A stretch of DNA of 40,536 nucleotides from Nitriliruptorales bacterium (GTDB taxonomy: Bacteria > Actinomycetota > Nitriliruptoria > Euzebyales > Egibacteraceae). The notes under the pieces were generated by a model, which did not search any database, was not told the DNA's origin, and worked only from the letters and a program-made list of their open reading frames with translations. The first letter of the stretch is position 1; every line of letters starts with the position of its first letter. A program made the position numbers and the translations under genes. Of this stretch, positions 11,236-26,013 are shown in pieces. The DNA is taken from contig WHTG01000006.1 in assembly GCA_009377835.1 (NCBI GenBank), forward strand, positions 1 to 40,536, given 5' to 3'.

Positions 11236-11383
11236 ACGAAGAGCTCCTGGCGCGATGGATGACGGGTGCGCCGGACCTAACGACCCTCGTCCATTCAGGT
11301 GACGCTGCGCCGTCCGGGCCGTGAATGCCGCCACCCGGGGGATCCACAACGTGGCCGACGGCCTGGGAACCTGACAGTCTTCA

Positions 11384-11401
11384 CTCGCGAACCAACGCGA
11401 G
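11384..11401 (+). promoter_or_regulatory. Hairpin overlapping the GH1 ribosome-binding site
   Basis: CTCGCG, six bases, then CGCGAG form a perfect 6-bp stem with an AACCAA loop. The right arm includes the first two bases of the AGGAG ribosome-binding site (11400-11404) of the GH1 gene. If formed in the mRNA it would partly mask that site. The structure is visible in the sequence; a regulatory role is inference. Confidence 0.35.
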
Positions 11402-11412
11402 GAGTCGCCCGG

Positions 11413-12654
11413 ATGCCGGAGGAGTCACAGCAGTTGCGCCCGGAGGGGCTGGAGGACGTCGCGGCGTTGGAGTCGGGAGCCATCGTGCACGGGCTGCGGT
11501 TTCCGCGCGGATTCGAATGGGGCGCGGCGACGTCCGCATACCAGGTCGAGGGCGGACTGGACGCCACGGACTGGTCGGAGTGGGAACGTCAGCCCCGCGG
11601 TGGCTGCGTCGAAGCGGCCGGTGACGCCGTCGACCACTACCACCGCTTCGGCGAGGACATCGCACTGCTTGCCGACCTCGGTCTCACCGCCTATCGGTTC
11701 TCGATCGAGTGGTCGCGCGTCCAGCCACGTGACGGCGAAATGGACGAGGGCGCACTCGATCATTACGAGGCGATGGTCGAAGCCTGTCATGCGGCCGGCC
11801 TGTCGGCGTGCGTGGCGTTGCACCACTTCACCAATCCGCTGTGGGTGAGCCGTGACGGCGGTTGGGAGAATCCGCGCACCGTCGACCTGTTCACGTCCTT
11901 CTGCACCGCCGTGGCCAGGCGGCTCGGTCCGAAGCTGGACCGCGCGATCACCATCAACGAACCCAACATGCCGCCGCTCCTGGGGTACCTGCTTGGGAGG
12001 TTCCCGCCTGGGAAGCGTGATCCGCAGGCCCGCGAGCGGGTGACGCGGCACTTCCTGCGTGCGCACGAACAGGTGCGCGACGTCCTGAGCGACCATACGG
12101 ACGCTCCGGTCGGCATGGCACTGGCGATGGTGGACTGGCAGCTGGTCGACGGGGGCGAGGAGCATCTGCAGCAACTGCGGGGGCCGCGCGAGGACGTGTT
12201 CCTGCAGGTAGCCCGCGACGATGACTACATCGGCGTCAACACCTATACCCGTCACCGTGTCGGTCGGCACGGCTTCATGGACGTCGAGGAGGGCGTGGAG
12301 CTGACGCACATGGGTTACGAGTTCTGGCCGGATGCCCTGGAGGCGACGGTCAGGCGGGCGGCGGGCGAGACCCGCAGACCTGTGGTCGTGACGGAATGCG
12401 GCATCGGCACCAAGGATGACGCCCGCCGGATCGTGTTCATCGCAGCGACCGTGCGGGGCATCCACAACTGCCTCGCGGCAGGTGTCGACGTACGCGGGTA
12501 CCACTACTGGAGCGCGCTGGACAACTTCGAGTGGAACCACGGGTACGCCCCGCAGTTTGGGATCGTGGCAGTCGACCGCACGACGCAGCAGCGCAGGGTG
12601 AAACCCAGCGGCCGATTCCTCGGCCGAATCGCGCGTGACGCAGGATTGCCCTAG
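11413..12654 (+). CDS. Glycoside hydrolase family 1 (beta-glucosidase-like)
   Basis: A 413-residue (beta/alpha)8-barrel hydrolase. The start at 11413 has AGGAG 8 bases before it; upstream in-frame sequence looks non-coding. GH1 hallmarks are FEWGAATSAYQVEG near 34-47, HYHRFGEDIALLADLGL at 75-91, FSIEWSRVQP, the acid/base in TINEPN (Glu183) and the nucleophile in VTECG (Glu328). Cys replaces the usual Asn after the nucleophile Glu, making TECG instead of TENG. WSALDNFEWNHGY near the end forms the aglycone and sugar site. It lacks a signal peptide, so it acts in the cytoplasm. It is shorter than the usual 440-480. It faces the minus-strand glycosyltransferase operon tail-to-tail, sharing the bases CTAG with the scar gene. 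It may trim an intermediate of that pathway. Confidence 0.92.
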   Translation: MPEESQQLRPEGLEDVAALESGAIVHGLRFPRGFEWGAATSAYQVEGGLDATDWSEWERQPRGGCVEAAGDAVDHYHRFGEDIALLADLGLTAYRFSIEWSRVQPRDGEMDEGALDHYEAMVEACHAAGLSACVALHHFTNPLWVSRDGGWENPRTVDLFTSFCTAVARRLGPKLDRAITINEPNMPPLLGYLLGRFPPGKRDPQARERVTRHFLRAHEQVRDVLSDHTDAPVGMALAMVDWQLVDGGEEHLQQLRGPREDVFLQVARDDDYIGVNTYTRHRVGRHGFMDVEEGVELTHMGYEFWPDALEATVRRAAGETRRPVVVTECGIGTKDDARRIVFIAATVRGIHNCLAAGVDVRGYHYWSALDNFEWNHGYAPQFGIVAVDRTTQQRRVKPSGRFLGRIARDAGLP

Positions 12655-12806
12655 GTGATCGCGTGCCTGGACGGGCACCACTCGATCGTGAGGTCCAGGC
12701 CGTCTTCCGAAGACACCACGGGATCCCACCCAGTAAATGCCGTGCTGACCAACCTGACGTGCCCCGCTCCGATGATGCCGATCTTCAGCCCGTCACCTTC
12801 TTCCAT
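12651..12806 (-). pseudogene. Deletion scar: dehydrogenase N-terminus fused to epimerase C-terminus
   Basis: A 51-codon open frame starts inside the end of the methyltransferase gene (overlap 12785-12806). It begins MEEGDGLKIGIIGAGHV, the first strand and glycine loop of a UDP-glucose-dehydrogenase-type Rossmann fold (compare KIxVIGxGYVGLV). After STAF it continues TGWDPVVSSEDGLDLTIEW to a stop, which matches how NAD-dependent sugar epimerases and decarboxylases end (LGWxPxVxxEEGLxxTIEW). So two ends, possibly from two neighbouring genes (a ugd-type and an epimerase or decarboxylase), appear joined in frame with everything between lost. The Rossmann glycine motif is degraded (GHVR for GHVG). 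The product is too short for catalysis. The family matches are recalled, not searched. Confidence 0.6.
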
Positions 12807-13591
12807 TGTCGTGCCCTGCGCACGGCCAGATCCAGTTCCGAGCGGTCGACCTGCACGTCCGGCGCCGGTTCGCAGAGGTAGATCTCGTGTCCGGGCCGTG
12901 CCGTCACGCGCAGACCCGTCGAGCGGACCATCGCTTCCACCGCAGCGTGGTTCGGTGCCCACCAGTTCGTGTGATCGTCGGCGAGCCGCCCTTCGATGAA
13001 GGCCATCTTGGGCCAGCCTCCCGAGAGCATCCGGTGACGTTCGGCCAACGGCAAGTCATCAGGGACGGTGTCGACGTCGTCACCCGGCATCGTCAGGGTC
13101 TGCAGGACCAGCAGCTTGTCGGTCAGGTCCGCGACGAGGTCGAGTGCCAGCAGCGGGTACCGGAGGTGGTACAGCACTCCCATGAACACCACGAGGTCGA
13201 AGGCCTCGGCGGTGTCGGCCAGGTCGTAGATGGTCCGGCGCTCGAACTCGACGCTGCCGGACATCCCGAACATCTCCGCAGCCCACCGCGCCTGCGTGAG
13301 ATAGTGCTCGTCCTGGTCGATCGCAAGGACGTGTGCGCCCCGCGCCGCAACCTCGAAGGTGTAGAAGCCGGCGTTGCACCCGATGTCGAGCACCCGCCAC
13401 CCCTGAAGATCCTGGGGAATGTGTGGCTCGAGTTGCCGCCACTTGTAGGAGGGATAGTCCGCCAGGGGGTGATCGGGAGCAGTCTGGTGTCCCGTTGGCA
13501 GGTGCAGGTTGTGGAACCACGGTGCCAACATTCGGATCTGCCGACCGATCTCGTCGTCGGGGCTGTCGCCACCCAGTGATTGCAGGGTCAT
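12785..13591 (-). CDS. SAM-dependent methyltransferase, TIGR04290-like
   Basis: A 268-residue class I methyltransferase. Motif I is VLDIGCNAGFYTFEVA (about 67-82), followed by the acidic LAIDQDE, and VVFMGVLYHLRYPL is the motif IV-V region. The N-terminal WFHNLHLPTG and later SYKWRQLEPHIP are typical of the CmoB-like and TIGR04290 groups, which I recall next to sugar genes. It is probably an O- or C-methyltransferase acting on the sugar chain or its lipid. The ATG overlaps the preceding CgeB-like gene by 4 bases (ATGA, 13588-13591). It is the last intact gene of the minus-strand operon. Confidence 0.88.
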   Translation of the reverse strand: MTLQSLGGDSPDDEIGRQIRMLAPWFHNLHLPTGHQTAPDHPLADYPSYKWRQLEPHIPQDLQGWRVLDIGCNAGFYTFEVAARGAHVLAIDQDEHYLTQARWAAEMFGMSGSVEFERRTIYDLADTAEAFDLVVFMGVLYHLRYPLLALDLVADLTDKLLVLQTLTMPGDDVDTVPDDLPLAERHRMLSGGWPKMAFIEGRLADDHTNWWAPNHAAVEAMVRSTGLRVTARPGHEIYLCEPAPDVQVDRSELDLAVRRARQWKKVTG

Positions 13592-14670
13592 GTCGGGCTC
13601 CGTCCGAGTGCCGGTTCCACCGACTGCAGGAGCGCGACCAGTTCTGCTGCCCGCGCATGGGCAGTGTGGTCCCTGAGCACCCGCTCGCGTGCCCGGCGCC
13701 CGATGTCGTGCCGCTGGGGGTCGGCAATGTCTCGCAGGTAGCCGCGTACCTGGTCGCGGTCGTCCGCGATCAGGATCTCCGAGTCGAGGCGGAAGAACTC
13801 ACCGAGCCCCGTCCACCGATCCGAGATGACGGGAACCGCACACGCTGCGGCTTCGAACAACCGCACGCTGGGCGAGCATCCCGCCTGGATCATCTGAGTC
13901 CTTGTGACGTTCAGCGTGAAGCGCTGCGCGTTGTAGAAGCCACCGTGCCGCGGGGGCGGAAGGTGCTCGATGCGCTCGACGTTCAGCGGCCAGTCAATGG
14001 TCTGCGGGTACTGCGGTCCGGCGACTGCGAACCGGCGGGAGGATTCGGCCATGGCGGGTTGCAGCAGCAACTCGTCCAAGCTGGGCTGACGATCCGCGCT
14101 GTACGTGCCGAGGTATCCCAGGTCCCACCGTGGCTCGCGGCCGTCGGGGTAGTAGCCGTCGGGATCAACCATGCAGTAGAACGCCCTCGCACGTGGTGAC
14201 CCGAACTCCCGCTCGAGCCGTTCCAGCGTCGGCCCCCCGGTGAAGGACAGGTACAGCTCGTAGCGGCGGACCAATTCACGGGAGAGGTACTCCTGATCGC
14301 CTGCCTCCAGCTTCTCCAGCGTCACCGGCGTGTCGATGTCGTAGAAGGCCGTCACACCCCGTGCCGTTCGACACACCCAGTTGCCCACGGCGACTCCCTG
14401 GGGAACGTAGGACCCGACGATCACGGCGTCGGCCTCGCGCACGCGGTCCGCGTGGGTACGTGTCAGTTCGTCGAACGACCCGTACAGGAATGTTTCCCCC
14501 CACGGCGGCGCCGGCAGGTCGCGCTGACCGGCGTACCACGGCATGTCCCGTTCCAGGAACGTCACGACGTGCCCTGCTGCTTCGAGCGCGCGCATCAAGC
14601 CTCGGTAGTTCGTGGCGTGCCCGTTGCCCCACGACGACGTGACGGACAGGCCGACGAAGACGATGTCCAT
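13588..14670 (-). CDS. CgeB-like glycosyltransferase 1
   Basis: A 360-residue GT-B protein. The N-terminal Rossmann domain opens MDIVFVGLSVTSSWGNGHAT with a NYRGLMRALEAAGH helix. The C-terminal donor domain has SPSVRLFEAAACAVPVISDR (about 275-300), the CgeB/Glyco_trans_1_2 signature, and WTGLGEFFRLDSEILIADD. ATG directly follows the stop of the previous gene (14670/14671), so translation is coupled. It is the third of three paralogues in tandem, with similar architecture and length. It probably transfers a sugar from a nucleotide donor in the cytoplasm; donor and acceptor are unknown. The spore-glycan protein CgeB is the namesake, but no sporulation role is implied. Confidence 0.87.
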   Translation of the reverse strand: MDIVFVGLSVTSSWGNGHATNYRGLMRALEAAGHVVTFLERDMPWYAGQRDLPAPPWGETFLYGSFDELTRTHADRVREADAVIVGSYVPQGVAVGNWVCRTARGVTAFYDIDTPVTLEKLEAGDQEYLSRELVRRYELYLSFTGGPTLERLEREFGSPRARAFYCMVDPDGYYPDGREPRWDLGYLGTYSADRQPSLDELLLQPAMAESSRRFAVAGPQYPQTIDWPLNVERIEHLPPPRHGGFYNAQRFTLNVTRTQMIQAGCSPSVRLFEAAACAVPVISDRWTGLGEFFRLDSEILIADDRDQVRGYLRDIADPQRHDIGRRARERVLRDHTAHARAAELVALLQSVEPALGRSPT

Positions 14671-15744
14671 CTAGGCGTCCCGTCCCTGGAGAACCGCCTC
14701 GACCCGGGCCGCACGGTCGGCGTAGGTGTGGTCGCGAAGTATCCGCCGGCGCGCGGCGTGCCCGATCGCGCGCGCCTGCTCGGTTGACACGCTGTGCAGG
14801 TACGCCGTGACGTCGTCGCCTCCATGCGCGACGAGCACCTCGGCATCGGGTTCCAGGAACATCTCGATGCCCTCCCACGCATCGGTGATCAGGCAGGCGC
14901 CTGCTCCTGCTGCTTCGAATACCCGGGTGGCCGGCGAATAGCCATTGGCGGCCATCGACTCCCTCGAGATGTTCAGGACCATCCGGGCCGAGCAGTTCAG
15001 GGCGTTGTGGTCTCCCGGGGCGACATGGCCGAGATACCGCAGGTTCTGCGCGCCCGCACGGTCGTCCCACCCGGCTCCTCCGAGCACGAACGTCGCAGAC
15101 GGCGCCCTGCCAACGGCACGGAAGAAGAACTCGTCGACACGGGCTTCGCGGTCGGGCAGGCGGTTGCCCAGGAACGTCAGGTCAGCGGCGAACCGCGGAT
15201 CGGCCGGCACGGGAAAGTGTGTCGACTGGTCCAGTGCGTTGTAGATCGGAAGGCAGCGACGCGCCCCCAGGGCGGCATAGCGACTCACCACAGGGTCACC
15301 GCCCCCATAGGTGAAGATCAGGTCATAACTGCCGATCAGTGACCGCAGACGATCGTGTGGGTCCTGCTCCATCCGACCCAGAGTGGCCGGCGCATCCACG
15401 TCCCAGAAGACCACGATGTTGCCTGGGCGCTTCAACTCCAGCACGGCCTGTTCGAGCACGTCGTCAAAGACCCCGACGCCGCTGGCCTTGACGACGACAT
15501 CCGCGCCCGCTGCGCGTTGCACGGTTCGCCGCACCTGCTCAGCCGTCTCAGCGGCGTAGACGACATCGCGTGCCCAGTCGGGATCGGGAATGTCGCGGTG
15601 CGCCTGGCGGTCGAAGGCGTGGGGTTCGAAGAACGTCACATCATGACCGCGCGTCGCCAGGTTCCTCACGATGCCGCGGTAGTACGTGCACGCGCCGTTC
15701 CAGTACGCCGACACCAGACTGGACCCGAAGAACGCGAACTTCAC
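14671..15744 (-). CDS. CgeB-like glycosyltransferase 2
   Basis: A 357-residue GT-B protein beginning MKFAFFGSSLVSAYWNGACT with the same YYRGIVRNLATRGHDVTFFE helix-strand as its neighbours. An acidic VVFWDVDAPATL loop lies mid-protein and the donor-site signature is SPATRVFEAAGAGACLITDA, followed by WEGIEMFLEPDAEVLVAHGG. The start overlaps the upstream gene stop (ATGA, 15741-15744). It resembles the next gene more than the previous one. Three such enzymes in a row suggest stepwise addition of three sugars or recognition of different acceptors; this is inference. Confidence 0.87.
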   Translation of the reverse strand: MKFAFFGSSLVSAYWNGACTYYRGIVRNLATRGHDVTFFEPHAFDRQAHRDIPDPDWARDVVYAAETAEQVRRTVQRAAGADVVVKASGVGVFDDVLEQAVLELKRPGNIVVFWDVDAPATLGRMEQDPHDRLRSLIGSYDLIFTYGGGDPVVSRYAALGARRCLPIYNALDQSTHFPVPADPRFAADLTFLGNRLPDREARVDEFFFRAVGRAPSATFVLGGAGWDDRAGAQNLRYLGHVAPGDHNALNCSARMVLNISRESMAANGYSPATRVFEAAGAGACLITDAWEGIEMFLEPDAEVLVAHGGDDVTAYLHSVSTEQARAIGHAARRRILRDHTYADRAARVEAVLQGRDA

Positions 15745-16823
15745 GACATCTCCTCGTAGATCGACAGCAGCTCATCGACGCGGTGGGTGCACGTGTGGCG
15801 TGCCCGGATCGTTTCCAGCCCGGACCGCACCAGGCGGTCGGCCAGCCGGGCGTCGCCGAGCACGGCCTTGATCTGTTGTTGCATCTCGGCACCCGAGGAG
15901 GCGAGCAGGTAGTCGCGCCCGGGGCGGAACAGCCGTTCGCTGTCATCCCACGGCGCGCAGATCAACGGGATCCCGCAGGCAAGTGCTTCGAACACCCTGA
16001 TCGTCGGCACGCCATTCAAGCTTCGTGCGTAGGGTCGCCGTGGGATGTGCAGCGTCAGCCGGTGGCGTGCGAACTCCTGCGGCACTCGGTGGTTGGGAAT
16101 CCACCCGCCGAATCGCAGCCCGGCGGCCTTGATGTGATCCACCGCCTCGGGCGGGTAGCGCACCCCGTGGATCGTCCCCGACAGTTCGAGCGCCCGTGCG
16201 GGTGTGAACAGATATTCCTCGAGTTCGCTCTCACGCTCGCCGTCGCCCCAGTTTCCGATCCACACGAGATCGGCGGTGGTCGTCGCCTCGATCGGGTGGA
16301 AGACGCGGGTGTCGGCTGCCTCGTGCCAGGTCCACGCGCGCCGTGACCAACCACGTGCGATGTAGATGTCGCGGATCACCTTGCCGAACGCGAGCACGCC
16401 GTCATAGCCGCTGAGATCGAACTGCTGTATCGACTCCGGTCGCGTCACCGCTCGGTGGTGGGTGTCGTGAAACAGCAGCTTGGACCCAGGCGCGCGGCGG
16501 TGCTGCCCGATGAGCGCGACGAGTTCCGGCTCGTTCCACTCGTGCACGATCACCAGGTCCGCGCCCGACAACACGTCGTGCAGCTCCAGCGACCCCGCGT
16601 CGTAGAGCGTGCTGCGAAGCTGCGGGAACCGCTGGGTGAACTCCGTGACAGCGGCGTCCCCGTGGGTTCGGGCCAGATTCGACCGGCTCCATCCGCCCTG
16701 CGGCTCGAAGACGCCGACGTCGTGGCCGCGGTCGATCAGTTCTGCGACGACCCCACGCAGGAAGTGCGCGTTCCCGTGGTTCCAGTCGGACACCAACGAG
16801 TGAACGAACATCACGATCTTCAC
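15741..16823 (-). CDS. CgeB-like glycosyltransferase 3
   Basis: A GTG at 16823, overlapping the upstream GT4 stop (GTGA), gives 360 residues starting VKIVMFVHSLVSDWNHGNAH. An in-frame ATG 42 bases upstream lies inside the upstream gene and adds an odd tail. The acceptor domain has NAHFLRGVVAELIDRGHDV and the donor domain has VPTIRVFEALACGIPLICAP with WDDSERLFRPGRDYLLA. It also has HEWNEPELV and a His-rich LLFHDTHHRAVT. It is the first of the three paralogues to be translated. The fold and family are clear and the substrates are not. Confidence 0.86.
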   Translation of the reverse strand: MKIVMFVHSLVSDWNHGNAHFLRGVVAELIDRGHDVGVFEPQGGWSRSNLARTHGDAAVTEFTQRFPQLRSTLYDAGSLELHDVLSGADLVIVHEWNEPELVALIGQHRRAPGSKLLFHDTHHRAVTRPESIQQFDLSGYDGVLAFGKVIRDIYIARGWSRRAWTWHEAADTRVFHPIEATTTADLVWIGNWGDGERESELEEYLFTPARALELSGTIHGVRYPPEAVDHIKAAGLRFGGWIPNHRVPQEFARHRLTLHIPRRPYARSLNGVPTIRVFEALACGIPLICAPWDDSERLFRPGRDYLLASSGAEMQQQIKAVLGDARLADRLVRSGLETIRARHTCTHRVDELLSIYEEMS

Positions 16824-17884
16824 GACCGAGTCTGCACCTGGCCCGCGCGATCCCCGCACAGCCACGCGTACAGCTGCTCGTACGCTGTGGCCATGATCTG
16901 CGGCGAGAACCTGGCGGCTCGTTCGGCAGCCGCAGCCTGCCGCTCGGTGAGCGCCGCACGGTCGTCGATCAGCGACTGCAACGCCGCCCGCAATCCGTTC
17001 TGGTCCGACGGGTCGATGTAGGTGGCGGCGTCCCCCCAGACCTCGCGGAGGCTGGCGATGTCACCCAGGACCAGCGCGCACCGCGCCAGCGCGGCCTCCA
17101 GCGCCGCGAGGCCGAATGGCTCGTAGCGCGCAGGCTCGACGAAGATCTGGGCCTGCGCCAGGAGCCGCCGCAACTGCGCGCCCTCCAACGGCCCGAGCAC
17201 GCCACCCCCCGGGACGTCACCGGACCCCGCGACGAGCAGCGGCCAGCGCAGGCCGTCGGCGGCCCGGACCGCCAACGCGACGTTCTTAGCCTCGTCCCAC
17301 ACCCGGCCAGCCGCCACGATGACGTCCCTCTTCGCCTCGTGGGTGTCGTAGCCGGTGCGGCCGTTGTGGACGACGGTGGTGGTCGACGTGATGCCGTACG
17401 CGTTGTGCAGATCCTCGCGCAGCGCCTCGGTCGGGACGACCACCAGATCTGCGGCTGCAAGTCCTCGCGCAACCTGCCTGCGGTACCGCTCCCACTCCGG
17501 CGGCGGATCGGCACCGTGGACTGCCCGCCACCAGGTGACGACGTCGGAGTGCGCGACGACCATCACCGGGCGTCCCCAGGGCAGCGCGGCGTGGCTGTAG
17601 TCGTTGAGGTGGACGACATCAGAATCGTGGACTTCAGCGAGGTCCAGCAGCCACTCACCTGCCGCCGCCACCTCCGACCAGGCATCGCGCATCCACTCCA
17701 GCCGGAACGGCCGCGCGTCCCACTCGATGCCCAGCAGCTCGACGTCTCGGCGTTGACCACGGGTGAGTTCCCCGCCCGTGACCGCGAGGAGGACGTCGTG
17801 GCCGCGCGCGCACAGCTGGGTACTCAGTTCCAGAGCGTACGTCCATACTCCCCCGATGCAGTCGGCGCTCATGAGAACCTTCAT
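16820..17884 (-). CDS. GT4-family glycosyltransferase
   Basis: A 354-residue retaining GT-B enzyme. The ATG at 17884 overlaps the stop of the Gfo/Idh gene (ATGA) and gives MKVLMSADCIGGVWTYALEL, the usual GGxWxY acceptor loop of GT4. Residues up the strand from this ATG are arginine-rich and non-homologous. The E-x7-E donor motif is EPFGLAALE. VIVAAGRVWDEAKNVALAVR and the VVHNGR hinge are also typical of the group. It probably uses an NDP-sugar in the cytoplasm and belongs to the same transcript as the CgeB-like trio, so it may start or branch the same chain. Confidence 0.88.
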   Translation of the reverse strand: MKVLMSADCIGGVWTYALELSTQLCARGHDVLLAVTGGELTRGQRRDVELLGIEWDARPFRLEWMRDAWSEVAAAGEWLLDLAEVHDSDVVHLNDYSHAALPWGRPVMVVAHSDVVTWWRAVHGADPPPEWERYRRQVARGLAAADLVVVPTEALREDLHNAYGITSTTTVVHNGRTGYDTHEAKRDVIVAAGRVWDEAKNVALAVRAADGLRWPLLVAGSGDVPGGGVLGPLEGAQLRRLLAQAQIFVEPARYEPFGLAALEAALARCALVLGDIASLREVWGDAATYIDPSDQNGLRAALQSLIDDRAALTERQAAAAERAARFSPQIMATAYEQLYAWLCGDRAGQVQTRS

Positions 17885-18870
17885 GACGCTCTGCCGTAGA
17901 TCAGGTCCAGGGTTCCGGCGACATCGAGGATGCGCTCTATTCGCGGGTCGTAGCCCGCCCCGACGCTCAGTGAGTCGGCCCAGGCGACCAATGCGCGCCC
18001 GCCCCAGTCGTCCCCCGGCCCCACCAGGCGCTGCCACGAGCGGCCCCGGTACAGGTTGCACTCGAAGTCGTAGAACGACCCGTTGCAGTTCCGCGCTGAC
18101 ACACCACCGTCGGTGCCGTGGAACGTGGCGTCGACCACGGCGTCGGTGCCCGCGTCGAGGAACCAGGAGCACGCGAGCCGCACGCTGGCGCCGTCAGACA
18201 TGGTGAGCTGCGCGACGGCATAGTCCTCCACGGAGCGCGCGAGATCGGTCAGCGGTTCGCCCTTGACGAACAACTGGGCCGTCACCGACTGCGTCGTCGT
18301 CTGCAGTGCCCACAGGGCGATGTCGACCAGGTGGGTCCCGAGGTCGATGACGCAGCCGCCCCCCGATTGCGCCGGATCGGTGAACCACGGCTTGTCCGGG
18401 CCGTACGCGTTGTGGAAGACCAGATCGGTGGCGTACACACGTCCGATCGCGCCGGCCCGAACCGTGTCGACCGCCGCACGAAACGCATCGATGTGGCGGT
18501 AGGACAGGTCAACGCCCAGGAGGAGGTCGTTGTCGCGGGCGGCACGGACGACCCGTGCACATTCGGCCCGTGTCCGGCCGAGCGGTTTCTGGCAGAACAC
18601 CGGCACACCGTGCCCCATCGCCGTCAGCGCCTGCCGGGCATGCAGCGCGCTTGGCGTCGCCAGCACGACCCCGTCGAGCGGTTGCTGCAGCGCCGCCTCC
18701 AACGACGGCACCACCACGGCGCATCCGACTTCCGCGGCCGCTCTGGCGGCTCCCTCCTCGTCAGGGTCCGCGACGACCGCCGCGTCCGCCGCACCCGCCT
18801 GCACGGCTGAACGCATCCGCGCACTGCCGATCCAGCCGGCGCCGACGAAGGCCAAGCGCGGGCGGGTCAT
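17881..18870 (-). CDS. Gfo/Idh/MocA-family oxidoreductase
   Basis: A 329-residue NAD(P)-dependent dehydrogenase. The N-terminal Rossmann fold has FVGAGWIGSARM and the family lysine motif is FCQKPLGRT (Gln instead of the usual Glu before Lys-Pro). The catalytic region is SGGGCVIDLGTHLVDIALW (His at about 180). These enzymes oxidise or reduce sugars or cyclitols. In a sugar cluster it probably makes a keto intermediate or an aminosugar precursor, although no aminotransferase is present here. The start overlaps the alcohol dehydrogenase stop by 4 bases (18867-18870). Confidence 0.9.
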   Translation of the reverse strand: MTRPRLAFVGAGWIGSARMRSAVQAGAADAAVVADPDEEGAARAAAEVGCAVVVPSLEAALQQPLDGVVLATPSALHARQALTAMGHGVPVFCQKPLGRTRAECARVVRAARDNDLLLGVDLSYRHIDAFRAAVDTVRAGAIGRVYATDLVFHNAYGPDKPWFTDPAQSGGGCVIDLGTHLVDIALWALQTTTQSVTAQLFVKGEPLTDLARSVEDYAVAQLTMSDGASVRLACSWFLDAGTDAVVDATFHGTDGGVSARNCNGSFYDFECNLYRGRSWQRLVGPGDDWGGRALVAWADSLSVGAGYDPRIERILDVAGTLDLIYGRAS

Positions 18871-19811
18871 GGCCGCACCACGGCTTTGAGGAAGCCGTCC
18901 GGGCGCTCCAGCGCAAGATCGAATGCGCGCCCGATGTCATGCAGTGGCACCGAATGCGTGATGAGCGCAGGCAGATCCAACATGCGACCCGTCACAGCGG
19001 CAACGGCCGATTTCATGCCGCGCACATAGATGCTGGGATCGCGCTCGTGGGCGTTGACCACGTCGATCCCGCGCCAGTTCCACGACTGCATGTCCACCGT
19101 TCGCGCGCCGTCCTGGTGATAGCCGGCAACCACGAGACGTCCACGCACTTTCACCAACGACGCCGCCAAATCGAGAGTCGACTGGCGTCCCGCCGCCTCG
19201 ATGACGACGTCGCACATGTGGCCACCGGTCAGTTCGGCCACCACGTCGTATGGGTCGTCGGTCAACCCGATGACATGCTTGGCGCCGCACCGCTGCGCGA
19301 GGTCGAGCGCGAACCTCCGGCGGGTGATCGCGATCACGGTGCTGCCACATGCCGCCGCACGCTGCACCAGCAGCGCGCCGATGAATCCGACACCCACCAC
19401 GGCCACGGTGTCACCTCTGCCGATGCCACTGCGTTCGAACACATTCATCGCACAGCCCACGGCCTCCCCCGGGAAGGCTCCGGCGTGGTCCCGGGGGAAC
19501 GGCACGAGATGGTCCACGTGCGCGACGTCGAACTCGGCGAACCCGTTGTAACTGAGGGCCACGGCACGCTGGCCCACCCTGCCGTCCGGCACTCCGGGAC
19601 CCGCGGCGGTGACCCTGCCCCAGATCTCGTGCCCCGGTGCCCCGGCCGGGCGTGGATAGTCGAACCACGGCCGTCCCCCGTAGACCGCGAGGTCGGACCC
19701 GCAGATGCCGGACCCCTCGACATGGATGAGCACCTCGTCGTGTCCGGGGTCGGGCGTCGCCACATCCTCAATGCGCACCCGTCCCGGTGCGGTGAGAACA
19801 GCGGCACGCAT
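18867..19811 (-). CDS. Zinc-type medium-chain alcohol (polyol) dehydrogenase
   Basis: A 314-residue MDR protein. The start at 19811 has GAGGGG 8 bases before it, giving MRAAVLTAPGRVRIEDV. The catalytic-zinc site has GSGICGSDLAVYGG (Cys) and GHEIWGRV (His-Glu). The four-cysteine structural-zinc loop usual in sorbitol- and threonine-type enzymes is absent. The cofactor fold is VAVVGVGFIGALLVQRAA. It probably oxidises a sugar alcohol, inositol or sugar hydroxyl with NAD(P). It is slightly short for the family (340). It lies between the GH-epimerase fusion (11-base gap) and the Gfo/Idh gene, so the two oxidoreductases may act in series. Confidence 0.9.
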   Translation of the reverse strand: MRAAVLTAPGRVRIEDVATPDPGHDEVLIHVEGSGICGSDLAVYGGRPWFDYPRPAGAPGHEIWGRVTAAGPGVPDGRVGQRAVALSYNGFAEFDVAHVDHLVPFPRDHAGAFPGEAVGCAMNVFERSGIGRGDTVAVVGVGFIGALLVQRAAACGSTVIAITRRRFALDLAQRCGAKHVIGLTDDPYDVVAELTGGHMCDVVIEAAGRQSTLDLAASLVKVRGRLVVAGYHQDGARTVDMQSWNWRGIDVVNAHERDPSIYVRGMKSAVAAVTGRMLDLPALITHSVPLHDIGRAFDLALERPDGFLKAVVRP

Positions 19812-19822
19812 CCGGCGGCCCC

Positions 19823-21916
19823 TCAGCCGGCCGAGTCGGTGCCACCTGTTACCGCGGGCACGACTGCGAGAGGCCTGTCTGCGTGTTCGATCAGCCAGCG
19901 GTGCAGCCGCGTCAGACCCGCCTCGGCCTTGACCGTCGCCTGCCAACCGGTCGCGGCTTCGAAACGCGAGGTGTTCGAGACGTAGTAGCGCTGGTCTCCA
20001 GGACGCCACGCGGCGAACGACACTTCTGGTGCCGCACCGTGGATCCGCTCGATCGCGCGGAGTACCTCGACCAAGCTCACGGTGTTGGCCGGGCCACCGC
20101 CGATGTTGAACGCCCGACCGTCCATCAAGGTGCGGGACTCGGAAAGCAGCCTGCGGACGGCATCGACGAGATCGTCGACGAACAGGATGTCGCGCACCTG
20201 CTTCCCATCTCCGTAGACGGTGATCGGCAGTCCCCGGATGGCGTGGATCAGGAAATGCGCGACCCATCCCTGGTCCTCGGTGCCGAGCTGGTGCGGTCCG
20301 TAGACACAGCTCATGCGGAACACCGCGCTGCGGAAGCCGAAACTGCGGGCGTAGTCGAGGACGTATTGGTCTGCGGCGCCCTTTGAGGACCCGTAGGGAC
20401 TGCAGAATGCCAGCGGGTGGTCCTCGCCGATCCCCGAGGCGGCGATCACCTCGTCCTCCGGCTCGTAGCGTGCGACGTGCTCCGTCAGTTTCACGTCGTC
20501 GAGATCCCCGTAGACCTTGTTGGTGGAGGTGAACAGGATCGGCGGTGCAGCCTCCAGCCGCCGCATCTCCTCGAGCAGGTTGAACGTTCCGCGCAGGTTC
20601 ACGTCGAAGTCGTGCACCGGGTCGTCCCGGCTCGACGTCACCGCGACCTGCGCCGCGAGGTGGACGACTTCGTCCGCCTCCCGCAGCGCTCGGCGGATCG
20701 CGAAGCGGTCCCGCATGTCGCCGATCATGGGAATGATCAGCGAGCCGTGGGTGTCAATGAGCCACCGAAGGTTTCGCTCCGTGCCCGGTCGCGAGAGGTT
20801 GTCCAGGACGACAACCGGTTTCTTGTCGCGGGCGATCCGGTCGGCAAGGTTCGTGCCGACGAAGCCGGCGCCGCCCGTGATCAACGTGGGACGCACCTGG
20901 TGAAGCTCGATGCGGGGCTGCCCCAGTTTCGCGAAGCGGCGGACTTCGTCGAAGCCCTGCTCGGCCCACACCCGTGCGGCCAGCTTCGGCCGTCCCTCGT
21001 TGGTGAACAGGCCGAAGTGGTAGGCACGTTCGTCGGCATGGAAGCCGTCCAGTGTCGCGCGTTCCGGTGCGAGGTCCTCGGCGCTGTACCAGTAGACCCG
21101 CGCCACGGGCGCCTCGACGACCTCAACGAGTTCGGTGAGCATCCGGAACTCGTCGTGGTGCCAGGTCGAGAACCCACACTCGGTGATCCAGATCTGCGCC
21201 GGCGATCCGTGCGCGTCGAGCACCTCCTGCGGCCGGTTGACCTGTGCGTCCCATCCGTCCCACACCGCTTCCCACGTGCCGGGAAAGCCATGGATTCCCA
21301 GGACGTCGATGTCGGCCATCGCTCCGCGGTTGAACATGAGATGGAGCCAGTTGGGATCCATGGGACTCATGCCACCGAGGACGGTCCGCACCTCGTGCCG
21401 CCTCGCCGCCGCAGCCGCGCCGGCGATCATGTCGGCGAAGATCTTCCACTCCGGGTCGACGGTCCAGTCCCACTCGATGAAGTTGTTCGGCTCGTTCCAC
21501 AGCTCGACGTGCGAGAAGAACCCGCCATAGGTGGTCAGCAGCTGGTCGACGAATGCGGCGAAGTCGTCGGGGTCACGCGGGGGTGACGAGGTCTTCGGCA
21601 GAATACCGAGGTGCGTCGGCGTGTAGAGCACGCACGGGGTGACATCGAAGCGGTCGGTCAGCTTCGGCAGGAGCCAGTCGTACCACTCGCGCCCGCCTTC
21701 GTTGACGAAGTCGTGCCACGACACGGACGTGCGCAGGCGCGTCACCCCCAGCGAGGCGAGCTCCTCGACGACCCGCTCCACCTTGTGGTAGTCGCGGATG
21801 TGGAAATACGACACCACCCCCAGGTCCGGGTTGCCTGTTCGGCGCTCCCTTTCCTCCGGCTGCATCCCGTCATCGTCCTGCGGTCCGAACCGGATCGTGT
21901 CGACGATCCGGCTCAT
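19823..21916 (-). CDS. Fusion: glycoside hydrolase (clan A-like) + NAD-dependent sugar epimerase
   Basis: A 697-residue two-domain protein. Residues about 28-325 form a TIM-barrel hydrolase resembling GH39/GH5: SVSWHDFV near 64-71, the acid/base in ELWNEPNN (Glu142) and the nucleophile in WITECGFS (Glu246). After a short linker, residues 343-685 form an extended SDR: TGGAGFVGTNLA (348-357), the Y508-G-S-S-K512 active site, FTSTNKVYGD, and FRMSCVYGPHQLGTEDQGW, the last two characteristic of CDP-paratose/tyvelose 2-epimerase relatives. The domain junction is continuous, with no frameshift or internal ribosome-binding site that I can see. No signal peptide is present. The hydrolase could release a sugar that is salvaged, or edit a product, while the SDR makes the nucleotide sugar; this is inference. 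Confidence 0.9.
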   Translation of the reverse strand: MSRIVDTIRFGPQDDDGMQPEERERRTGNPDLGVVSYFHIRDYHKVERVVEELASLGVTRLRTSVSWHDFVNEGGREWYDWLLPKLTDRFDVTPCVLYTPTHLGILPKTSSPPRDPDDFAAFVDQLLTTYGGFFSHVELWNEPNNFIEWDWTVDPEWKIFADMIAGAAAAARRHEVRTVLGGMSPMDPNWLHLMFNRGAMADIDVLGIHGFPGTWEAVWDGWDAQVNRPQEVLDAHGSPAQIWITECGFSTWHHDEFRMLTELVEVVEAPVARVYWYSAEDLAPERATLDGFHADERAYHFGLFTNEGRPKLAARVWAEQGFDEVRRFAKLGQPRIELHQVRPTLITGGAGFVGTNLADRIARDKKPVVVLDNLSRPGTERNLRWLIDTHGSLIIPMIGDMRDRFAIRRALREADEVVHLAAQVAVTSSRDDPVHDFDVNLRGTFNLLEEMRRLEAAPPILFTSTNKVYGDLDDVKLTEHVARYEPEDEVIAASGIGEDHPLAFCSPYGSSKGAADQYVLDYARSFGFRSAVFRMSCVYGPHQLGTEDQGWVAHFLIHAIRGLPITVYGDGKQVRDILFVDDLVDAVRRLLSESRTLMDGRAFNIGGGPANTVSLVEVLRAIERIHGAAPEVSFAAWRPGDQRYYVSNTSRFEAATGWQATVKAEAGLTRLHRWLIEHADRPLAVVPAVTGGTDSAG

Positions 21917-23028
21917 CGCGCGAGGCCCCGGCTGCTCAGCTCCATGGCCGCGTCGTCCACGCGGTCGACCGCCACCTGTCCTTCAAGCCACTGGGCGAGA
22001 GCGGCCACCCCTTCCTCGAGGTCGATGGCTGGCTCGAAGGCCAGCAGCTCCCGGGCGAGTGTGATGTCGGCGAAGCAGTGGCGGATGTCCCCTACGCGGT
22101 ACTTGCCGGTCACCTCAGGCTCGATGTGGGACTTCCCAGTCACTTTGGCCAACTGCTCGGCGACCTCTGTCACGGTGGCACTGCGGCCGCTGCCGATGTT
22201 CAGGACGTGGCCGACAGCGTCGTCAGCGATCAACGCCAGGTGGCACGCGCGCGCGACGTCTTGCACGGCCACGAAGTCACGCCGTTGCTCACCGTCCTCG
22301 AAGACCATGGGGGGGCGGTTGTTGAGCAACCGGGCAGCGAAGATCGCCAGAACGCCGGTGTAGGGATTCGACAGCGCCTGGTCCGGTCCGTACACGTTGA
22401 AGAAGCGCAGGGCGACGGTGGGAACGCCGTACGCGGCACCGTACAGCAGGCACATGCGTTCCTGGTCGTATTTGCCCAGTGCGTAGACGGAGGACAGGCT
22501 CGGCGGCTTCGTCTCCGGTGTCGGCAGCGGCTCGAGTGATTCACCGTCCAGACCCAGTGGGTCCCACTGCTTGCGTGCCAGCTGGTCCGGCGTTCGTTGG
22601 ATGTTGTCGTGCAACGTACCGTCGGGGGCCCGGTACAGTCCCTCGCCGTAGACGCTCATGCTCGATGCCACCAGCAGCCGGCCGACGTCGCGCTGCGCCA
22701 TCGCATCCAGCAGCACGCCGGTGCCGTGTGTGTTCACGCTGGTGTAGTCCGCAATTTCGTACATGCTCTGGCCGACACCCACCCGTGCCGCGAAGTGCAC
22801 GACGTCGTCGACACCGTCCAGCGCGCGGCTGACGGCCTGTGGGTCGCGAAGGTCCCCGATCACCAACTCGACATCATCGTCCAGGTAGTGCGGTCGCGCG
22901 CCTGCCTCGTGTACCTGCGGATTGAGATCGTCAAGCGCTCGGACGGTGAACCCGCTGTGCAGCAGCTCGCGACCCACGTGGGACCCGATGAAGCCGGCAC
23001 CTCCGGTTATCAGCACACATTCAGACAC
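21913..23028 (-). CDS. NAD-dependent sugar epimerase/dehydratase (extended SDR)
   Basis: A GTG at 23028 with GGGGG about 6 bases upstream gives 371 residues starting VSECVLITGGAGFIGSHV; the in-frame upstream extension is not SDR-like. The NAD-binding loop is TGGAGFIG, the active site S-S-V-Y182-A-L-G-K186, and the substrate region RFFNVYGPDQALSNPYTGV. The insert QWDPLGLDGESLEPLPTPE is characteristic of a subset of UDP-sugar 4-epimerases. It is the first gene of the long operon, overlapping the fusion gene by ATGA (21913-21916). It probably supplies a nucleotide sugar to the glycosyltransferases downstream. Confidence 0.9.
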   Translation of the reverse strand: MSECVLITGGAGFIGSHVGRELLHSGFTVRALDDLNPQVHEAGARPHYLDDDVELVIGDLRDPQAVSRALDGVDDVVHFAARVGVGQSMYEIADYTSVNTHGTGVLLDAMAQRDVGRLLVASSMSVYGEGLYRAPDGTLHDNIQRTPDQLARKQWDPLGLDGESLEPLPTPETKPPSLSSVYALGKYDQERMCLLYGAAYGVPTVALRFFNVYGPDQALSNPYTGVLAIFAARLLNNRPPMVFEDGEQRRDFVAVQDVARACHLALIADDAVGHVLNIGSGRSATVTEVAEQLAKVTGKSHIEPEVTGKYRVGDIRHCFADITLARELLAFEPAIDLEEGVAALAQWLEGQVAVDRVDDAAMELSSRGLAR

Positions 23029-24083: not shown

Positions 24084-25256
24084 GTGAGGCTTCGTGTGTT
24101 GTTCCTCACGTGCCACCTGCCGTTCCCACCCGTCAGCGGCGGCCGTCGCCGCGAATTCGAGTTGCTGCGTCGAATCGGCCGGGAGGTCGACGTGTCGGTG
24201 TGCGCGATCTCGAAGACGTATGAGGAAGACCGCTCCAACGCGGGTGCGCTGGCGCCCTACTGCACGGACGTCCGCGTGGTACCTGCTGAACCCGCGCGGG
24301 CAAGCGACGTCATCCCGTTCCAGGTGCTGCGCCACCGCTCACGGCACGTGCGGCGGGCGCTGCGGAAGGCCCGCTATGACGTGATCCACGTCGAGGGCTT
24401 CTACCTGATGCAGCACCTGCGGCACATCGAGCCGGGACCCACCGTGCTGGTGGAACAGAACATCGAGTACCAGCTGTGGGAACAACGTGCCGCACATGCG
24501 CGCGGCACGGCCGCATGGCGACACCGGCGCGAGGCGGAGCGCACGCGGGTGGCTGAGCAGGAGGCGTGGCGCACCGCCGACGTCGTCGCTGCCCTGACCG
24601 AGGAGGACCGCGCTGTCATCCGTGCGAGCGGGATCGACCACGTGCCGTTGGTGCCCGATGGCATCGCGCGAGCGCAGGATCACCTGGCCCCCACCGTTGA
24701 GGGGTCACGTCCTGTGGTGACGTTCATCGGAAACTTCGCCTACGAGCCGAACGTCGACGCGGCTCAGCACTTCGTCAAACGCGTGCTGCCGCGTCTTGTC
24801 CACTCCGTTCCCGACGTGCACGTGATGCTGGTGGGCAACGCGCCTTCCATGGCGGTCCGTGCACTGGCCGGGCGCCACGTCACCGTCACCGGCCGGGTCC
24901 CGGACGTAGGGGAGTACCTTCAGGCGGCGACGGTCGTCGTCTGTCCGCTGCGTGTCGGGGGTGGCGTGAAGGTCAAAATGCTCGAGGCATTGGCGTATTC
25001 CAAAGCGATCGTCAGCACTTCCGTCGGCACCCAGGGGCTGGGTCCCGGGGTTCATGAGGCCGTGGTCGAGGCAGACGACCCGGTCCCGATGGCCGCAGCG
25101 ATTGCCGAGTTGTTGCGCGACCCGCAACGCCGCCGCAGCCTGGAGGCCGCGGCTGGGGCGCATGCCGCGACCTTGCCCACCTGGGAGGACGCGGCCGAAG
25201 CGCTGGTCGGCTGCTACCGCCTCGCCGCCACTGGCAGACAGCCGCTTGATGCGTGA
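24084..25256 (+). CDS. GT4-family glycosyltransferase
   Basis: A GTG at 24084 with a GGGGTGAG stretch about 8 bases upstream gives 390 residues starting VRLRVLFLTCHLPFPPVSGG, the usual glycine-rich acceptor loop. An earlier in-frame GTG at 24039 abuts the sulfotransferase stop but adds 15 unneeded residues. The donor domain has VTFIGNFAYEPNVDAAQHFV and GGGVKVKMLEALAYSKAIVS. The pattern resembles the PEP-CTERM/XrtA-type GT4 group (TIGR03087-like), which I name tentatively. It overlaps the next gene by 8 bases. It probably extends the same glycoconjugate as the minus-strand enzymes. Confidence 0.87.
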   Translation: MRLRVLFLTCHLPFPPVSGGRRREFELLRRIGREVDVSVCAISKTYEEDRSNAGALAPYCTDVRVVPAEPARASDVIPFQVLRHRSRHVRRALRKARYDVIHVEGFYLMQHLRHIEPGPTVLVEQNIEYQLWEQRAAHARGTAAWRHRREAERTRVAEQEAWRTADVVAALTEEDRAVIRASGIDHVPLVPDGIARAQDHLAPTVEGSRPVVTFIGNFAYEPNVDAAQHFVKRVLPRLVHSVPDVHVMLVGNAPSMAVRALAGRHVTVTGRVPDVGEYLQAATVVVCPLRVGGGVKVKMLEALAYSKAIVSTSVGTQGLGPGVHEAVVEADDPVPMAAAIAELLRDPQRRRSLEAAAGAHAATLPTWEDAAEALVGCYRLAATGRQPLDA

Positions 25257-26013
25257 CGACGTTCTGGCGGTGCTCAACGAGGCGTACCGCGCGGTTGTCG
25301 AAGGCCTCGGTTCGCTGGCGGATTGGGGCGCGCAGGGAAGCAGGCCCGACCAGTTCGCCTGCGACATCGTGGCGGATGAGGCGGCGTTCAAGGTGCTCGA
25401 CGCCGCCGGCGTCGGCGTGGTGAGCGAAGAACGGAACGCTCAAGGCCTGGAGCGCGACATCGTCGTGGTCGTAGATCCCGTGGACGGGACCTCGAACGCG
25501 ATCCGGGGCATTCCCTACTACGCCATCAGCCTCTGTGCCGTCGACCGGCAGGGGATGCAGTCGTCGCTGGTCGTCAACCTGGCGACCGGCACCCGCTTCG
25601 AGGCGGTCCGTGGGCAGGGCGCACTCTGCGACGGCAGATCGATCGTGGCGAGCGACTGCTCGACGATGGAAGCCGCCTGGGTCGCCGTGTGCGGGCACCC
25701 TCGCCAGGAGCACCCGTGGCGACACATGAGGGCCTTCGGGGCGACGGCGCTGGAGTTGTGCGACGTCGCCCGGGGGCTGCTCGACGCTTATGTCAACACT
25801 GACGTCGACGCGATAGCTCCATGGGACTACCTCGGAGCCCTGCTCGTGTGCCACGAGGCGGGCGCGGTGTCGACGGACGGTTTGCAGCGACCGCTGGTCA
25901 CGACCGACCCGGCCGCGCGCCGCGCGCCGGTCGTTGCGGCAACGCCGTCTTTGCTGGCGGAGGCGGTCGGGTATGCCTGGCCTGGCCAGGCGCGGGAAAT
26001 CGCCGACAGGTGA
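25249..26013 (+). CDS. Inositol-monophosphatase-family phosphatase
   Basis: A 254-residue Mg2+-dependent phosphatase. Metal ligands are Glu60 (VSEER) and DPVDGTSN (Asp76, Asp79), and the second motif is WDYLGALLVCHEAG. The start at 25249 overlaps the glycosyltransferase end by 8 bases. Substrates in this family include inositol-1-phosphate, fructose-1,6-bisphosphate and 3'-phosphoadenosine-5'-phosphate (PAP, by CysQ). The GTSN motif looks closer to inositol-type enzymes. Its neighbourhood with a sulfotransferase, which releases PAP, makes a PAP-phosphatase role worth testing. Confidence 0.88.
   Translation: MRDDVLAVLNEAYRAVVEGLGSLADWGAQGSRPDQFACDIVADEAAFKVLDAAGVGVVSEERNAQGLERDIVVVVDPVDGTSNAIRGIPYYAISLCAVDRQGMQSSLVVNLATGTRFEAVRGQGALCDGRSIVASDCSTMEAAWVAVCGHPRQEHPWRHMRAFGATALELCDVARGLLDAYVNTDVDAIAPWDYLGALLVCHEAGAVSTDGLQRPLVTTDPAARRAPVVAATPSLLAEAVGYAWPGQAREIADR

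Follow-up and report, generated by a model that had tools for sequence, protein, structure and literature searches.

The closest described counterparts of the gene studied here lie in two enzyme families. CDP-tyvelose 2-epimerases (TyvE; T. atlanticus TyvE, PDB 9RL0, and TyvE, PDB 1ORR) have in common with its SDR half ∼40% identity and the whole SDR fold, including the nucleotide-binding glycines, the STNKVYG and SPYG-S-K motifs and an aligned catalytic tyrosine. PslG, the GH39 endo-beta-glucanase of the P. aeruginosa Psl system, resembles the glycoside hydrolase (GH) half in its clan GH-A barrel with one Glu after beta-4 and one on beta-7, and is itself an intracellular hydrolase whose gene belongs to an operon for polysaccharide biosynthesis (PMC11912335, PMC9075953). 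Hydrolases inside biosynthesis clusters thus have precedents, a further one being the mycobacterial methylmannose polysaccharide alpha-endomannosidase MmpH, a functional analogy, which belongs to a small glycosyltransferase and methyltransferase cluster and recycles the cluster's own glycan (PMC9883506). Unlike TyvE, the SDR here is fused to a hydrolase and sits in a cluster with GT4- and CgeB-type glycosyltransferases, not in an O-antigen locus. PslG is very distant in sequence, has no SDR fusion and serves an exported polysaccharide, in contrast to the present cluster, in which export genes do not recur. MmpH acts on alpha-mannan, and its abstract describes no epimerase fusion (PMC9883506).

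The window, a 40,536-nt stretch from a Nitriliruptorales bacterium, encodes the fusion as one uninterrupted 697-aa ORF running from ATG to stop on the minus strand (Table 1); on the plus strand, reading of the same interval is interrupted by stops. The fusion gene and the upstream SDR1 gene share 4 bases, the start codon of the former overlapping the stop of the latter (ATGA, 21913-21916). An AlphaFold2 model built from a 57-sequence alignment (pLDDT 89.6, pTM 0.87) places the beta-strands of the barrel at residues 32-35, 60-66, 91-97, 136-139, 177-183, 205-210, 241-247 and 273-277, alternating with helices to residue ∼320, and starts the Rossmann-type SDR at residue 344. The linker between the two holds a longer insert in a Xanthomonas relative. 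Inspection of the N-terminal sequence revealed no evident signal peptide.

Table 1. Positions of the fusion gene, its domains and residues, the surrounding cluster and related genes (window coordinates unless a locus is named)
Feature	Position	Strand	Basis or remark
GH-SDR fusion gene	19823..21916	-	ORF, AlphaFold2
GH domain, residues ∼31-320, (beta/alpha)8 barrel, clan GH-A type	20957..21826	-	profile, AlphaFold2
E142, predicted general acid/base, in WNEPNN after beta-4	21491..21493	-	57/57 aligned fusions
E246, predicted nucleophile, in WITECGFS on beta-7	21179..21181	-	57/57 aligned fusions
Inter-domain linker, residues ∼330-342	20891..20929	-	short, lower-confidence AlphaFold2 stretch
Extended SDR domain, residues 343-679, CDP-tyvelose 2-epimerase family	19880..20890	-	phmmer, Foldseek
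Y508-x3-K512 of SDR	20381..20395	-	alignment
SDR1, upstream conserved cluster gene	21913..23028	-	start inferred
Zinc-binding dehydrogenase, cluster gene	18867..19811	-	start inferred
Gfo/Idh/MocA oxidoreductase, cluster gene	17881..18870	-	
GT4-type glycosyltransferase, cluster gene	16820..17884	-	start inferred
CgeB-type (PF13524) glycosyltransferase 1	15741..16865	-	
CgeB-type glycosyltransferase 2	14671..15744	-	
CgeB-type glycosyltransferase 3	13588..14670	-	
TIGR04290 family methyltransferase	12785..13591	-	329 bits vs cutoff 300
GH1-type beta-glucosidase	11299..12654	+	near cluster
Inositol-monophosphatase-family gene	25054-26013		near cluster
Fused SDR without Tyr, L034	9725-11860		also in L035
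Second SDR2, L034	14287-15423		also in L035
GH alone, L079	9947-11146		
Permuted GH, L116	11007-11957		
Permuted GH, L115	10983-11942		
Permuted GH, L114	11004-11930		
Permuted GH, L119	9001-9948		
Permuted GH, L120	9001-9945		
Permuted GH, L121	12001-12948		
Permuted GH, L118	23568-24527		
Permuted GH, L041	2284-3165		

The SDR half is a member of the CDP-tyvelose 2-epimerase family by sequence and fold, and a predicted epimerase. In phmmer searches it matched 9RL0 at 4.4e-75 and 1ORR at 2e-69, with the next family at 8e-34, and 1ORR ranked first in Foldseek (TM 0.93, 40% identity, E-value 8e-37 vs 2e-26). The dinucleotide-binding glycines lie in TGGAGFVG (residues 347-354) and the catalytic Tyr and Lys in YGSSK (residues 508-512), Y508 aligning with Tyr164 of T. 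atlanticus TyvE (PMC13098431). This tyrosine is kept in 53 of the 57 aligned fusions. The preliminary description, which had named these motifs and an extended SDR of the paratose/tyvelose 2-epimerase kind, is borne out, as is its hydrolase barrel, and the two catalytic glutamates, E142 and E246, are where it had placed them.

The hydrolase half is harder to classify. It has the features of clan GH-A, namely a (beta/alpha)8 barrel with N141-E142 after beta-4 and E246 at beta-7. Across the aligned fusions, N141, both glutamates and the surrounding WNEPNN and W-x-TE motifs are unchanged in 57/57, a figure partly selected for near E142, where the scan patterns were placed, and free of that at E246 and in the SDR. 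The nearest solved relative is PslG (E-value 1.2e-7 with a 32-sequence profile), a match that, like those of the SDR half, lies well beyond chance; the best 50 Foldseek matches of the fusion model are all SDRs. No Pfam or NCBIfam family scored above its cutoff, Pfam GH39 reaching only a sub-cutoff E-value of 0.19 in one of eight GH members. The hydrolase half is therefore invisible to Pfam, and its specificity is not readable from its family. The best reading of profile and model is a predicted retaining beta-glycosidase of clan GH-A type, PslG/GH39-like.

The distribution of the fusion was examined in genome contigs and plasmids. Among genome contigs, 169 relatives were confirmed, in Actinomycetota, Bacteroidota, Gemmatimonadota, Myxococcota, Thermodesulfobacteriota, Acidobacteriota and Pseudomonadota, and 80 of these loci were examined. 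GH and SDR share a single ORF in 77 of the 80, and the fusion holds the same cluster position in Actinomycetota, Bacteroidota, Gemmatimonadota, Myxococcota, Thermodesulfobacteriota and Pseudomonadota. Homologues are thus not consistently split, and the claim of one continuous polypeptide stands. A search of 72,556 plasmids returned 149 records with a GH match. The join might be suspected to be an artefact of assembly or of a frameshift that ran two adjacent genes together, as 318 contigs make up the assembly that includes the window contig; with the fusion present in numerous independent genomes as well as on complete plasmids, this explanation is ruled out for practical purposes. The join is real, old and cross-phylum, and lies within one sugar-building cluster. 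Locally its occurrence is patchy: the window genome has one copy, and the fusion and the first CgeB-type glycosyltransferase of the cluster are both absent from the 20 genomes of its family that were searched.

Three of the 80 loci are exceptions. In L059 the contig end falls inside the gene. L049 (Gaiellaceae) has a GH without SDR and keeps both glutamates, and L079 (Acidobacteria) has a GH alone, with the nucleophile Glu replaced by Lys in a partly broken cluster. The L079 hydrolase looks decayed. It could also be taken to favor a barrel that serves the epimerase as a non-catalytic carbohydrate-binding scaffold, and retention of a fold alone does occur in other families. Such a role is highly improbable given the invariant Glu pair and motifs of the fusions, the same pair in 12/12 circularly permuted homologues (see below), and the retention of the hydrolase in L049 where the SDR is missing.

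The cluster has a recurrent order: SDR1, GH-SDR, a slot held either by zinc dehydrogenase with Gfo/Idh or by a radical SAM protein (TIGR04295), GT4, three CgeB-type glycosyltransferases, an optional UDP-glucuronate decarboxylase and the TIGR04290 methyltransferase. The cluster, with about ten genes and a defined set of enzymes shared across phyla, has been annotated piecemeal, as "NAD-dependent epimerase", "glycosyltransferase" or "beta-xylosidase", and a search of part of the literature under its NCBIfam names and S. meliloti locus tags found no paper. On plasmids, counts of the hydrolase (fused or permuted) and of the CgeB-type glycosyltransferase, which take in many near-identical strains, agree almost fully genus by genus, at 66/66 in Sinorhizobium, 48/48 in Rhizobium, 10/10 in Roseomonas, 5/5 in Azospirillum, 3/3 in Ensifer and 2/2 in Bradyrhizobium, making the hydrolase a near-constant cluster member. 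The genes that recur within 10 kb of the cluster include no recognized exporter, flippase or polymerase, although export genes may lie elsewhere in the genome; together with the lack of an evident signal peptide, this fits an intracellular product. No CDP-sugar genes were seen in the conserved cluster. A GH1-type beta-glucosidase gene, found near the window cluster, also lies beside four other actinobacterial copies (L034, L035, L036 and L038).

The fusion is probably a cytosolic bifunctional enzyme, a reading held with moderate confidence, in which the SDR 2-epimerises a donor and the GH processes the product of its own oligosaccharide or glycoside biosynthesis cluster. The data establish what the domains are, that the catalytic residues are conserved, that the gene belongs to the cluster and that split forms occur in nature; we infer its substrates, the direction of the GH reaction (hydrolysis or transglycosylation) and its physiological role as follows. 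The SDR would invert C-2 of a nucleotide sugar in a TyvE-like gluco/manno interconversion, and the resulting donor would feed the GT4 and CgeB-type glycosyltransferases. The GH, as a retaining beta-glycosidase, would act on the intracellular glycoside of the cluster by trimming or recycling it or by editing misassembled chains, and the fusion would hold both activities in one protein at equal dose. Retaining enzymes of clan GH-A can also transglycosylate, and a place alongside four glycosyltransferases in a cluster for biosynthesis would suit a transglycosidase that builds a linkage from an intracellular oligosaccharide donor. This alternative is unlikely but deserves consideration: the sequence features tested do not distinguish building from breaking, four glycosyltransferases are already there, and PslG, the closest relative with a solved structure, acts as an endo-beta-glucanase (PMC11912335).

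Natural variants of the gene provide further evidence. In four loci (L009, L010, L034 and L035), some of them from Actinomycetota, the catalytic tyrosine of the fused SDR is lost (Y508 to G or A); L034 and L035 have a second, stand-alone SDR (SDR2) within the cluster, and the L034 copy has an intact SPYGCSK. In Bradyrhizobium, Sinorhizobium, Ensifer, Roseomonas, Paracoccus and Rhizobium sp. AB2/73, a stand-alone SDR2 is accompanied by a separate GH gene, called "beta-xylosidase" or "glycosyl hydrolase" where annotated and in several cases directly 3' of the methyltransferase. This separate GH is, as judged from alignments, a circular permutant of the fused barrel. For instance, query residues 137-319 match residues 6-193 of the Dyadobacter copy (E-value 4e-35) and query residues 30-130 match residues 196-294 (5e-19). 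The other genera with a separate GH show the same segment swap; the Bradyrhizobium protein scored 459 against a head-to-tail duplicated window domain, versus 281 for the best collinear alignment. Permuted proteins are ∼294-320 aa long and start just before beta-4. The Dyadobacter stop-to-stop frame is only ∼295 aa, which excludes a hidden N-terminal piece. AlphaFold2 modeling of a permuted GH from only four near-identical Dyadobacter rows gave a pLDDT of 51.7, too low for a reliable fold.

GH70 glucansucrases, which are very large extracellular enzymes of clan GH-H, are circularly permuted relative to GH13. The stand-alone GH likewise shows a catalytic (beta/alpha)8 barrel permuted in nature, but it is small, of clan GH-A type and presumably cytosolic. 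A limited literature search found no clan GH-A type barrel whose naturally occurring circular permutant replaces the unpermuted domain, and such a stand-in is unusual. Among the loci examined, 6/6 in which SDR2 stands alone and the fused GH is missing carry the permuted GH, a count partly conditioned on the GH, through which loci were located; it indicates that the pathway keeps its hydrolase.

These fused, split, degenerate-SDR and permuted versions form a natural experiment on the purpose of a domain fusion. Since SDR and hydrolase are found apart in nature, their covalent join is not strictly needed for catalysis, and obligate channelling is unlikely. A channelling or salvage loop, with the sugar released by the GH re-activated and then epimerised by the attached SDR, would agree with the short linker and the occurrence of the fusion in many phyla. 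It is nevertheless improbable, because the SDR requires a nucleotide sugar whereas the GH frees a plain one, a sugar kinase and a nucleotidyltransferase are not among the conserved cluster genes, and split forms and fusions with a degenerate SDR exist. Part of the coupling proposed in the preliminary description therefore survives: a cross-phylum fusion in a sugar-building cluster supports two activities serving one pathway. A tight physical link is not supported, given the SDR alone with a permuted GH, the GH alone in L049 and the tyrosine-less SDRs with a second SDR.

Phylogenies of the two domains suggest how the variants arose. In the SDR2-domain tree, whose root is unsure owing to a long outgroup branch, stand-alone copies are scattered inside fused ones, and a stand-alone Sinorhizobium/Ensifer/Rhizobium group nests in fused Rhizobiaceae (support 96/92). 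This indicates that the GH half was lost repeatedly, as far as the tree can tell. In the GH-domain tree, for which permuted sequences were first rotated back, the permuted forms of Bacteroidota and Alphaproteobacteria form one clade (100/100). The permutation thus probably arose once, with several lineages that lost the fused domain retaining or acquiring the permuted gene. A speculative extension of the bifunctional reading, quite unlikely as it stands, is stereochemical proofreading: 2-epimerases leave a mixture of gluco and manno donors, and the hydrolase would remove wrong-epimer glycosides, a need that the permuted stand-alone hydrolase would repeatedly re-solve.

Other neighbours of the clusters were also recorded. 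Inositol-3-phosphate synthase and histidine phosphatase genes accompany permuted-GH clusters (L114, L115, L116, L118, L119, L120, L121 and L122), and the window cluster has an inositol-monophosphatase-family gene nearby. Inositol is suggested as the aglycone, at a level of conservation too low for a claim. In L118 (Rhizobium sp. CB3090), a fused cluster and, ∼14 kb away, a permuted GH with inositol-3-phosphate synthase occupy one plasmid region. Of 59 alphaproteobacterial loci, among which related strains are non-independent, 18 have an EcfG-type site (GGAAC-N15-18-YGTT) in the 350 nt preceding SDR1, mostly 70-90 nt before its start, versus 0 of 29 other loci (chance expectation, 0.022 per 350 nt). 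The presence of the cluster in genetically tractable rhizobia, often behind this general-stress-type promoter, makes its product findable. DUF1003 and stress-type SDR genes recur near the alphaproteobacterial clusters.
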